64,000 nt of DNA from Candidatus Rokuibacteriota bacterium (GTDB lineage: Bacteria > Methylomirabilota > Methylomirabilia > Rokubacteriales > CSP1-6). Positions 7,256-36,842 of the stretch are shown piece after piece (the stretch's first letter is position 1; every line of letters starts with the position of its first letter). The translations under genes were made by a program, and so were the position numbers. The notes below the pieces were generated by a model. That model searched no databases. It had not been told where the DNA came from and worked only from the letters and a program-made list of their open reading frames with translations. The stretch covers positions 1 through 64,000 of the forward strand of contig VGLJ01000015.1 in the NCBI GenBank assembly GCA_016866775.1. Direction: 5' to 3'.

Positions 7256-8023
7256 TCATCGGCCTCCCGTCACCGGGAGGGTGTGGCCGGTGATGTAGCT
7301 CGCCTCGTCGGACGCCAGGAAGAGCACCGCGTTCGCCACTTCGACCGGAAGGCCGAGACGGCCGAGCGGCGTCATCTTCGACGGGCTGTACTCCACCGTG
7401 CGGTCGAGCTCCTTCAGGTTCGCGCCCGTCCGCTCGGTGTCGATGGGGCCCGGCGCCACCGCGTTGACGTTGATCCCGTACTGCGCGAGCTCGAGCGCGA
7501 CGTCGCGGATGAAGCCGTGCACGCCCGCCTTCGCCGCGGAGTACGCGGAGCCGCCCGCGTAGTACGCGGTCCACGGGGTGCCCTCGCGCGCGCCCGACGA
7601 GATGCAGACGATCTTGCCGTAGCGCTGCGAGATCATGTGCGGCGCCGCCGCGCGCGTGCAGAGGAACGTCGAGCGCAGGTTCCACCGGATCGTGTGGTCC
7701 CACGCCTCCTCGGGCATCTCCCAGATCCGCGCGTTCTTCGCGCCGCCGACGACGTTGACCAGGATGTCGAGGCGGCCGAACCGCTCGACCGCGGTCTCGA
7801 CCAGGCGCTTCGCCGATTCCGGCTCGGTGACGTCGCCCACGACGCCGACGACCGTCGCGCCCGTCTTCTGGAGCTCGAGGACCATTCGCTCGACGAGCGC
7901 GGCGTCGATGTCGCCGCCGATGACGCGCGCGCCCTCGGCGGCCAGGCGATCGGCGACCGCTCGCCCGATGCCCTGCCCGGCGCCGGTCACGACGGCGACG
8001 CGATCCTGGACGCGGCCGGCCAC
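7256..8023 (-). CDS. SDR-family oxidoreductase
   Basis: This classical SDR has 255 residues. The cofactor motif is TGAGQGIGR, the catalytic Ser is in CISSGAREG and the Tyr/Lys pair in YSAAKAG. The DILVNVVGG and ITGHTLPVTGGR segments fit 3-oxoacyl-ACP reductase-like or 2-hydroxyacyl dehydrogenases. The GTG start at 8023 shares bases with the TAG stop of the upstream acyl-CoA dehydrogenase, so translation is coupled. As the last gene after two acyl-CoA dehydrogenases it could catalyse the hydroxyacyl-to-ketoacyl step of a beta-oxidation-like route; that role is inferred from context only. Confidence 0.85.
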   Translation of the reverse strand: MAGRVQDRVAVVTGAGQGIGRAVADRLAAEGARVIGGDIDAALVERMVLELQKTGATVVGVVGDVTEPESAKRLVETAVERFGRLDILVNVVGGAKNARIWEMPEEAWDHTIRWNLRSTFLCTRAAAPHMISQRYGKIVCISSGAREGTPWTAYYAGGSAYSAAKAGVHGFIRDVALELAQYGINVNAVAPGPIDTERTGANLKELDRTVEYSPSKMTPLGRLGLPVEVANAVLFLASDEASYITGHTLPVTGGR

Positions 8024-31872: not shown

Positions 31873-33112
31873 ATGGACCGGGTGATGGAACGCTGCGCCG
31901 GCCTGGATGTGCATCGCGATAGTGTGGCGGTCTGTGTGCGGGTGCCCGGCCCGCGCGGAGAGCGGGGCCAGCATGCCCGCACCTTCGGCACCACCACCGC
32001 CGATCTGCTCGCCCTGCGCGATTGGCTGGAGGCCCTGGGCGTGACCCACGTCGCCATGGAGAGCACGGGCGTGTACTGGAAACCGGTGTACTACGTGCTG
32101 GAGGACACCTTCGAGTGTCTGCTCGTCAATGCCGTCCACCTCACGCACGTCCCCGGCCGCAAGACCGACGTGCAGGACTGCGTGTGGATCGCCCAGGTGC
32201 TGGAGCACGGGCTGCTGCGGGGCAGCTTCGTGCCGCCCCCCCCTGATTCGCGATCTGCGCGATCTCACGCGCTACCGCCGCGTCCTCACGGACGAGCGCA
32301 CGCGCGAAGCCAATCGCTTGCACAAGTTGCTGCAGGGCGCGGGCATCAAACTCGCCTCCGTGGCCTCCGACGTGCTCGGCGTATCGGGCCGCGCGATGCT
32401 CGCGGCGCTCGTGCAGGGCACGACGGACCCCGCCGTGCTCGCCGACCTCGCCCGCGGCAAACTGCGCCGCAAGCTTCCCGCGCTCCGCCAAGCCCTCGCG
32501 GGCCGCTCCCGAGCGCATCACGCCTTCCTCGGCGGTCAGATCCTCGCCCACCTCGACTATCTCGATGAGGCCCTCGACACGCTCACCGAGCAGATCGGCG
32601 CGCTCCTCGCCCCTTTCGCGCAGGGGATCGAGCGGCTGGACACCATTCCGGGCTTCAGCCGCCAGACCGCTGAAGAAGTCGTGGCCGAGGTCGGGTTCGA
32701 CATGACCGTCTTCCCGACTGATCGCCACGTCAGCAGCTGGACGGGCCTCTGTCCCGGCCACAACGAAAGTGCGGGCAAGCGCCGCTCGGGCCGCACCCGC
32801 AAAGGCAACCGCTGGCTGCGCCGCACGCTGGTGCTCGCCGCCCACGGCGCCCGCCGCACGCGCGGCACGGCGCTGGCGGCCCGCTACCAACGCATTGCCC
32901 GCCACCGCGGGGAGAAGAAAGCGCTCGTCGCAGTCGCCCACGCACTCCTCATCACCGCCTACCACGTCATCAAGGAGCAGGCGACCTACCGAGAACTCGG
33001 CTTCGATTACAACGACCGACGCGACGCGGACCGCGCTCGCCGTCGCGCCGTCGCTCTCCTCGAACGTCAGGGCTATCGTGTCTCGCTCGAGCACACCCCT
33101 GCGGCCGCGTGA
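31873..33112 (+). pseudogene. IS110-family transposase, frameshifted at a C8 run
   Basis: The N-terminal DEDD RuvC-like domain is clear (CAGLDVHRDSVAVCVRV, VAMESTGVYWKPVYYVLE, GRKTDVQDCVWIAQVLEHG). The C-terminal Transposase_20 domain is complete (LDTIPGFSRQTAEEVVAEVG, SSWTGLCPGHNESAGKRRSG with the catalytic Ser). The frames join at CCCCCCCC (32236-32243). Seven C would read SFVPPPLIRDLRDLTRYRR, the usual family sequence. Either the copy is dead or the run was miscounted. IS110 transposases are normally a single frame, so programmed slippage is unlikely. Confidence 0.87.
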
Positions 33113-33120
33113 TTTTCAGA

Positions 33121-33206
33121 GCAATCGGATTCCTGGGGGAGGCAGGGAGGAGCACGCCGTCGGGCGTGCGACGACCGCCGGAAGGGGGGCGAAGCCCCCT
33201 CCGGGG
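33121..33206. repeat. Right part of family 2 palindromic repeat, after the IS110 element
   Basis: Starting at the duplicated GCAATCGG, this stretch continues the family 2 repeat with GGGGGAGGCAG, a middle hairpin (CACGCC-GTCG-GGCGTG) and a terminal hairpin (GGGGGGCGAAGCCCCC) that ends at the stop of the 33208-34110 gene. The middle hairpin differs in sequence from the one at 46474-46579, but its arms still pair. Confidence 0.82.
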
Positions 33207-33207
33207 A

Positions 33208-34110
33208 TCAGACGGGCGAGGAGCCACTCGACGGCTTCAGGAACTGATAGATCGCGGTGAAGTCCTTGCGCCCGAGGCCGTGGGACGACGCGAGGCGCAG
33301 CACCTGCTGCGCGGCCGGCGAGACGACGACGGGGATCCGCAGCTCGCGCGCGGCGTTGACCGCGAGCCCGAGATCCTTCGCCATCAGGTCGGTCATGAAC
33401 CCGCCCTCGTAGTCGCGGCTCGACGCCGCGCGCGGCACCAGGCCCGGCACCGGGTGCGCGGCTTCCATCACCCACGTGTTGCCGGACGACTTCGAGATCA
33501 CGTCCGTCAGCACCTTGTGATCGACGCCGAACGCCTCGGCGATGCGGAACGCTTCGCTCACCGCCACCGCCGCCACGCCCGCAATGAGGTTGTTGCAGAT
33601 CTTGGCCACCTCGCCCGCGCCCACGGGCCCGACGTGGATGATGTTCGCGCCCATCGCGGCGAGCGCGGGGCGCGCTTCCTCGACGTCGCGCGCGTCGCCG
33701 CCGATCATGATCGCCAGCGTGCCGTCGATCGCCTTCGGCACGCCGCCGGAGACCGGCGCGTCGATGAACCTCACACCTTTCGCGCGGACGGCCTCGGCCA
33801 CGCGCCGCGAGACCGCCGGGTCGATCGTCGACATGTCCACGCAGAGCTTGCCGGCGGCCACGCCTTCGAGCACGCCGCCCTTGCCCTGGTACACCGTCTC
33901 GACGTGGGACGAGGACGGCAGCATCGTGATGACGAGGTCGGCGCCGCGCGCCGCGTCCGCGCTGGATTTCGCCGCGGTCGCGCCGGCCTTCACCGCGGCG
34001 TCGAGCGCCGCGGGCACGATGTCGTACGCCGTGACGGCGAAGCCCTTCTTCACGAGGTTCGCGAGCATCGGGCCGCCCATCGTTCCCGTTCCGATGAATG
34101 CGATTTTCAT
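33208..34110 (-). CDS. NAD(P)-dependent beta-hydroxyacid dehydrogenase (HIBADH family)
   Basis: The 300-residue protein has the cofactor motif IAFIGTGTMGGPMLANLV, the substrate loop DAPVSGGVPKA and the catalytic Lys in AKICNNLIAGV. ATG 34110 was chosen at MKIAFIG, since upstream residues do not resemble the family. A family 2 repeat abuts its stop codon and can act as a terminator. It is divergent from the DMT transporter with 20 bases between starts. It is distinct from the family member at 21083-21967, and the substrate is unknown. Confidence 0.87.
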   Translation of the reverse strand: MKIAFIGTGTMGGPMLANLVKKGFAVTAYDIVPAALDAAVKAGATAAKSSADAARGADLVITMLPSSSHVETVYQGKGGVLEGVAAGKLCVDMSTIDPAVSRRVAEAVRAKGVRFIDAPVSGGVPKAIDGTLAIMIGGDARDVEEARPALAAMGANIIHVGPVGAGEVAKICNNLIAGVAAVAVSEAFRIAEAFGVDHKVLTDVISKSSGNTWVMEAAHPVPGLVPRAASSRDYEGGFMTDLMAKDLGLAVNAARELRIPVVVSPAAQQVLRLASSHGLGRKDFTAIYQFLKPSSGSSPV

Positions 34111-35078: not shown

Positions 35079-36842
35079 ATGACAGAGCGCCCGGCCGACA
35101 TGATCCTGCTCGAGCGGCTCGCCGACCTGGGCCGTCTCACCTCGCGTTCCGTCGACGTCCGGACCGTCGCCCAGCACGTGGTCGACGATCTGCGCATGCT
35201 CGTGCCGGTGCTGCGCGTGACGCTCTATCGCGGCGACCCCGGCTCGAACGACTTCAGCCTCATCGCGAATTCCACGGACCGCGAGGTCACCATCGTCTCG
35301 AACATCGTCTTCACGAACCGGACGGGCATGCCGGGCCTCGCGGCCAGCGAGGGCCGTCTCGTCGTCACCCCGAATCTCCTCACCGACCCCAGGGTGCGGC
35401 TCGAGCCGGATCTCCGCACCTACTGGGAGAGCACACCGATCCGCGCGGTCGCCGCCGTCCCGCTCGTCGGCGCCGACGCCATCCTCGGCGTGCTCACGCT
35501 CTCCGACCGCGAAGGGCGCGTGTTCTCGAACGAGGAGCCGCGGATCCTCGAGATGTACGCGGCGCAAGCGACGGTCGCGCTCGAGAACGCGCGGCTCTAC
35601 GCGCGCCTCGCGGACAAGACACAGCGCCTCAAAGTCCTGCACCGCCTCGCCCTCGGCCTCACGGCCACGCTCGGCGGCCAGGAAATCTTCACGGCGGTCG
35701 CACGCGCGGCCCTCGAGCTGTTCGGTGACGTCGGCTGCAGCCTCTGGCTGCTCGAGCCGGGCACGGACGTGCTCACGCTCGTCGCGGACGAGGGCGTTCG
35801 GTTCCCGGAGCTGCGTCCGGCGGGCACCATGAAGGCCGGCCAGGGCCTCGTCGGCCGGGTCGTGGCCGAGCGGCGGCACATCATCATCGAAAACGTCGAG
35901 GAGCGCGGCCACAACCGGGCGCTCAGCCGGGCCGAGGGCTTCCGCACCGCGATGGCCGTCCCGCTGCTCCTCGGCGAGCAGTGCTTCGGCGGGTTGTCGG
36001 TCCGCCGCCGCTCGCTCGAGCCGTTCTTCTCGGAGGACGTCGACCTGCTCACGGCGCTGGCGGGGCACGCGGCGATCACCATCGAGCGGTCGCGGCTCTG
36101 CCAGGACGTCACGCGCACCAACGAGCACCTGCGCGCGCAGGCGAGCGGCGCCTTCAGGTCGTGCGACACCGCGTACGCGAAGCTGTCGAGCTCCGCGTTC
36201 TTGGCCTGGAGCTGTTCCGTGAGCTTGCAGGGCATGGTCGGCCTCCTCGCCGAGGCCTGCGCGGACAGACTCGGCAAAGAGGGCCTTCACTACGTCGCGC
36301 GCATCGGCGCGACGATCAAACACATGGAAGGCCTGATCGCCGACCTCCTAGCGCTCGCGCGCGCCGGCCGCGAGGGGCGCGAGGCCGAGACCGTGGCGCT
36401 GGAGGAAGTCGTCGACCTGGTCCTCCAGCGGCTCGACGAGCCGCTGCGCACGCGCGGATTCAAGGTGACGCGCGGCGCGCTCGGCGAGGTCCGCGCCATC
36501 CGCACGCACATCGAGCAGGTGTTCTCGAACCTGATCGGGAACGCCGTCAAGTACATCGGCGAGCGGGCGGAGCCGTGCGTGGAGATCGGCCGGGGCGAGC
36601 GCGACGGCGTCGTGGAGTACCACGTGCGCGACAACGGGATCGGCATCGATCCCGCGTATCACGAGGTCTTCGAGACGTTCCAGCGGCTCAAGGAGGTCGA
36701 GGTCGAGGGCAGCGGCGTCGGGCTCGCGATCGTCAAGAAGATCGTCGAGAGCGCGGGCGGCGCCCTGCGCATCGAATCCGCCCCGGGCGCCGGCGCCACC
36801 TTCTTCTTCACCTGGCCGGGCAACGCCGAAGCAACGCGCTGA
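35079..36842 (+). CDS. GAF-GAF histidine kinase whose H-box segment is inverted
   Basis: The 587-residue frame has GAF 1 (about residues 10-170), GAF 2 (about 185-335) and a complete HATPase domain (IEQVFSNLIGNAVKYIGE, HVRDNGIGID, GSGVGLAIVKKIVESAGG). Between them, where the dimerisation/His-phosphotransfer helix should be, residues about 355-382 read as unrelated sequence. The reverse complement of that DNA (36140-36226) encodes LTEQLQAKNAELDSFAYAV and SHDLKAP, a textbook H-box. The frame is kept but the phospho-acceptor His is lost, so the product as written should not autophosphorylate. Confidence 0.87.
   Translation: MTERPADMILLERLADLGRLTSRSVDVRTVAQHVVDDLRMLVPVLRVTLYRGDPGSNDFSLIANSTDREVTIVSNIVFTNRTGMPGLAASEGRLVVTPNLLTDPRVRLEPDLRTYWESTPIRAVAAVPLVGADAILGVLTLSDREGRVFSNEEPRILEMYAAQATVALENARLYARLADKTQRLKVLHRLALGLTATLGGQEIFTAVARAALELFGDVGCSLWLLEPGTDVLTLVADEGVRFPELRPAGTMKAGQGLVGRVVAERRHIIIENVEERGHNRALSRAEGFRTAMAVPLLLGEQCFGGLSVRRRSLEPFFSEDVDLLTALAGHAAITIERSRLCQDVTRTNEHLRAQASGAFRSCDTAYAKLSSSAFLAWSCSVSLQGMVGLLAEACADRLGKEGLHYVARIGATIKHMEGLIADLLALARAGREGREAETVALEEVVDLVLQRLDEPLRTRGFKVTRGALGEVRAIRTHIEQVFSNLIGNAVKYIGERAEPCVEIGRGERDGVVEYHVRDNGIGIDPAYHEVFETFQRLKEVEVEGSGVGLAIVKKIVESAGGALRIESAPGAGATFFFTWPGNAEATR
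36140..36226 (-). other. Inverted segment carrying the kinase H-box
   Basis: Read on the minus strand, this roughly 85-bp stretch encodes TEQLQAKNAELDSFAYAVS followed by HDLKAP. That is the DHp helix with the phosphorylatable His and would fit exactly between TNEHLRAQ and LQGMVGLLAE of the plus-strand kinase. Short inverted motifs flank it (GCAGGC near 36137 and GCTTGC near 36223). Exact breakpoints cannot be fixed. Confidence 0.85.

Follow-up and report, generated by a model that had tools for sequence, protein, structure and literature searches.

A short segment encoding the H-box reads backwards within a histidine kinase gene in a draft genome of Candidatus Rokuibacteriota

A sensor kinase gene and its displaced H-box

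The stretch of DNA analyzed here (the window) comprises 64,000 nucleotides from Candidatus Rokuibacteriota bacterium (contig VGLJ01000015.1, assembly GCA_016866775.1) and agrees letter for letter with its counterpart on the genome contig, which we call C15. The genome itself is a high-GC draft of 5.13 Mb distributed over 159 contigs. Within the window lies an open reading frame (ORF) for a sensor histidine kinase with the architecture GAF-GAF-HisKA-HATPase, the features of which are collected in Table 1. The N and G boxes can be read directly from the ORF (NLIGNAVKY, DNGIGID and GSGVGLAI), and apart from the piece described below the gene is intact. About 2 kb upstream (31873-33112) there is an IS110-type transposase, recognized by the domains DEDD_Tnp_IS110 and Transposase_20, the ORF of which is split by a frameshift near 32232. 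Next to it, positions 33125-33215 hold a dispersed element of 70-85 bp, present in ca. 35-40 copies in the genome at 73-97% identity; it has adjacent hairpins (z -2.3) and no Rfam match, and looks like a palindromic repeat of the REP/BIME type.

Table 1. Features of the kinase gene and of the inverted segment (positions are those of the window).
Feature	Positions	Strand	Evidence or remarks
Histidine kinase ORF, H-box replaced by inverted sequence	35079-36842	+	587 aa; GAF (two stretches), HATPase_c, partial HisKA
Second GAF domain (aa 201-335); first GAF upstream	35679-36083	+	PF01590, E 4.6e-30, two stretches
Perfect 12-bp palindrome CTGCGCGCGCAG	36129-36140		Beside the left breakpoint
Inverted segment of 76 bp (74 to 78 bp, as the CG at either end is ambiguous), minus strand encoding EQLQAKNAELDSFAYAVSHDLKAPL	36143-36218	-	Alignment with homologues regained on re-inversion (+57 bits)
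Phospho-acceptor histidine codon (within VSHDLK), displaced to the wrong strand	36161-36163	-	Sequence
VSLQGM codons, still oriented as in the ancestor; they set the right breakpoint	36219-36236	+	Relatives read [AS]PL-[VI][AST][VIML]-[QH]GM
HisKA remnant (profile positions 20-64)	36225-36368	+	Pfam HisKA match below the cut-off
HATPase_c domain with intact N and G boxes (aa 475-580)	36501-36818	+	PF02518, E 2.5e-23

Of the two hallmarks of a sensor histidine kinase, the HATPase_c domain with its N and G boxes is present, and the H-box with the phospho-acceptor histidine is missing. Where the H-box should be, the plus-strand ORF reads ASGAFRSCDTAYAKLSSSAFLAWSC and has no histidine, while the opposite strand encodes EQLQAKNAELDSFAYAVSHDLKAPL. 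The Pfam HisKA match to the observed ORF begins only at profile position 20 and falls below the cut-off, and among the 61 HisKA matches in the genome this kinase is the only one from which the N-terminal 19 profile positions are absent. The original prediction had been that the reverse complement of this place encodes an H-box missing from the plus-strand kinase, and that the GAF and HATPase domains stay in frame on both sides of it. The former is borne out by the two readings just given, by the match to a paralogue and by the gain of 57 bits upon re-inversion (see below), the latter by the ORF, which is open throughout and carries both domains. A second HisKA kinase of the same genome (L069, contig C17, about 7335-7500) reads LANMSHELRTPLNAIIGLSELL and then leaves the frame, matching HisKA over positions 2-35 only; either the kinase is frameshifted or the sequence is in error.

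Extent of the inversion and comparison with homologues

When positions 36143-36218 are re-inverted in silico, the product reads ...LRAQAEQLQAKNAELDSFAYAVSHDLKAPLVSLQGMVGLL... and aligns with its homologues over the H-box and beyond; an HMM built from eight homologues scores it at 366.9 bits, as against 309.9 bits for the gene as read. This gain is specific to the place: we re-inverted 766 segments of 76 bp across the region, and none of those located more than 40 nt away gained any score (best -0.7, median -46 bits). The segment also has a match of 71 nt at 85% identity (E 3e-15) to a paralogue in the same genome (contig C4), where the remaining kinase matches in the other strand sense, and this opposition of strands is repeated in direct DNA comparisons with two relatives (G009 and G023). 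Such a match to the paralogue, in the reverse sense to the rest of the kinase, indicates that the H-box on the minus strand is not a chance resemblance. That the H-box is encoded by some 76 bp lying backwards within the kinase gene is, at the level of the assembled sequence, confirmed.

The inversion had been placed at 36140-36226, bounds that we have corrected to 36143-36218 since the VSL-QGM stretch (36219-36236) is in its ancestral orientation. The observed plus strand reads SVSLQGM here, where homologues have SHDLK[ATS]PL-[VI][AST][VIML]-[QH]GM and the paralogue TPLVSLQGM. Since VSL (36219-36227) has kept its ancestral position, the right breakpoint falls at 36218/36219 and, by register, the left one at 36142/36143. 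A CG dinucleotide occurs at both ends, and three pairs of breakpoints are equivalent: 36144-36217, 36143-36218 and 36142-36219 (74, 76 and 78 bp, respectively). Inversion of 36140-36226 or of 36144-36226 was rejected because the conserved V-x-x before QGM would be lost; larger inversions on the same center, including one near 36140-36226, keep the frame and lose conserved residues.

All the homologues examined, including the paralogue from the same genome, have the H-box in the normal orientation, and in five further ones (G018, G016, G001, G015 and G047) it was found inside one ORF. Once re-inverted, the protein is a full member of the HisKA (PF00512) kinases with a SHDLKAPL H-box, the same in architecture and sequence, its nearest homologues being those in G009, G018, G016 and G023 and the C4 paralogue. 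As read, in contrast to those kinases, it lacks the H-box and the phospho-acceptor histidine. One of these relatives (L039, contig C96 of G009) has several kinases of the SHDLKAPL-QGM subfamily grouped within 20 kb.

A search for the same element in relatives had been proposed, and we found no sign of it there. Among 95 genomes of the phylum, a pattern describing the inverted arrangement matched once, at this very locus, and a somewhat looser one for the normal orientation retrieved five kinases in three genomes. Applied to the GTDB species genomes, the same inverted pattern hit four places in unrelated genomes, none of them an inverted kinase; the pattern is strict, which makes this negative a weak one outside the family. 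One of these hits (L076) was discarded as a normally oriented kinase with a chance match upstream, and the other three (L074, L075 and L077) because the kinase HMM did not match them. A search for related loci among GTDB genomes found no relative. Neither did we find another genome from this species or genus, or an uninverted second copy in the assembly, which contains only the inverted form; the inversion is known from a single draft genome.

Possible origins of the inverted segment

We believe that the best explanation is a microinversion, recent and non-programmed, that reversed about 76 bp in the GAF-GAF-HisKA-HATPase sensor kinase of this high-GC bacterium. We would give this a probability of ca. 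0.55, a figure that, like the weight assigned to an artefact below, is a judgement and not a computed value. In its favor, the reversal is exact and in place, with no net gain or loss of bases, as far as this can be read from an alignment with homologues that are not of the same species. The event, if real, would be young, since the H-box on the minus strand is undecayed (see the identity to the paralogue above) and the remaining ORF is intact. In being short and an exact reverse complement in place, with nothing gained or lost, it resembles the microinversions (PMC8755829) and the products of short-range template switching (PMC7954356) described elsewhere. In the comparison of human with chimpanzee, most microinversions reverse a segment exactly and in place; all of them have inverted repeats of 3 nt or longer on their flanks, and they have been ascribed to template switching or to microhomology-mediated break-induced replication (PMC8755829). 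The present case differs in its length (76 bp as against 17-33 nt), in lying within a bacterial coding sequence known from one draft genome, and in its edges, where the inverted homology amounts to 2 bp (CG) instead of at least 3 nt, with a longer imperfect repeat at the left edge only.

This imperfect repeat, in which positions 36129-36142 pair at 12 of 14 with 36255-36268, abuts the left breakpoint, and its partner arm sits 36 nt off the right one; an inverted repeat as good as this is found beside 3% of the positions in the gene. That it misses the right breakpoint, and that only 2 bp match at the ends, may count against the microinversion. The motifs GCAGGC (36137-36142) and GCTTGC (36223-36228), to which attention had been drawn, do exist near the ends and are complementary at five of six positions, but 54% of random pairs of breakpoints 76 bp apart in the gene have a pair as good or better.

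A microinversion would have turned around the N-terminal part of the dimerization/phosphotransfer domain. It may have arisen by a short-range strand or template switch, or by microhomology repair, joined at the 2-bp CG; template switching near a hairpin is a plausible mechanism. The ORF would still be translated, and as there is no histidine at the place of the H-box the observed protein should not autophosphorylate, i.e., it should be dead as an autokinase, a loss-of-function allele with presumably no dedicated way back.

The main rival, a serious possibility toward which we lean less, is an assembly or library artefact, in which a chimeric self-templated read or a local misjoin flipped the 76 bp in the consensus and the gene of the organism is normal. 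We are dealing with a single draft assembly in many contigs and with no independent copy, the sequence at the left breakpoint is GC-rich and palindromic, and the lesion is young and precise within an otherwise well-kept gene. Apparent frameshifts at a few other places in the assembly (8 in 439 kb of coding sequence), the second HisKA kinase on C17 included, fit gene decay or sequence errors alike. However, no inverted repeat of a length that would mislead a graph-based assembler is present; where flanking inverted repeats of k-mer length are lacking, a de Bruijn assembler would presumably have had nothing from which to build the inversion, and its junctions should then be found in some reads. 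Bases are often lost or gained where chimeric sequences join, and this in-place inversion is clean. To look for strand flips inside genes, codon usage was scanned over a 465-kb sample of the assembly; the kinase segment came out among the top few and no other convincing internal flip emerged, although a score as high is attained by only about 29% of simulated inversions and rare further ones could be missed. The other top segments, judged by eye, lay in spurious antisense ORFs, sequence preceding the start of genes and low-complexity stretches. A one-off flip in 465 kb argues against a pervasive assembly defect.

Much less probable is that the loss of the phospho-acceptor was selected, the inverted form having been fixed as a pseudokinase that senses through its GAF domains and dimerizes without phosphotransfer. 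The open ORF and the intact HATPase boxes would agree with this, but chance alone favors an open frame (when 76-bp inversions were simulated in genes of this genome, the frame remained open in 67% of them), no relative shares the inverted form, and an event so recent would leave selection no measurable trace.

More improbable still is the on/off switch that the original prediction envisaged if the inversion were reversible, i.e., an intragenic inverton in which a recombinase flips the H-box and turns the kinase on and off. The inversion is precise, both orientations are open and the H-box is undecayed, and there is the precedent of intragenic invertons in bacteria (Chanin et al. 2024, as cited in PMC11868660), with which this case shares an inversion lying inside a gene and changing its coding content. 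Against this, invertons are defined by inverted repeats of 10-40 nt and an invertase (PMC11892184), and here there is neither an associated invertase nor evidence for two orientations; the repeat search and the breakpoint tests found no such repeats at the ends of the segment. A search for a recombinase had likewise been proposed: no serine recombinase (PF00239) was found in the whole genome, and of the tyrosine recombinases (PF00589) there are 14 matches, none of them on the contig carrying the kinase. The assembly holds no second orientation, and the arrangement recurs neither in relatives nor, for the one strict pattern, in GTDB genomes. The preservation of the frame, mentioned originally alongside the switch, is uninformative, given that inversions never shift the downstream frame and that most of the simulated ones are free of stops. 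Least probable of all is a repeat-free switch toggling kinase and pseudokinase, for example through an RNA-guided recombinase of the IS110 type for which a short shared core would suffice, and inversion guided by IS110 was rejected, as the upstream transposase is frameshifted and no full-length second copy of it was found in the genome.

Significance of a frame-preserving inversion

An intragenic inversion with an intact frame is, by itself, no evidence for phase variation. Should the segment prove to be an assembly error, it would be a useful test case for detecting such errors through strand-specific homology. If the microinversion is real, it would be a clear case of a short, clean inversion disabling a bacterial gene with the frame unshifted, a type of lesion that ORF and domain annotation would miss, since the frame stays open and the GAF and HATPase matches are kept.
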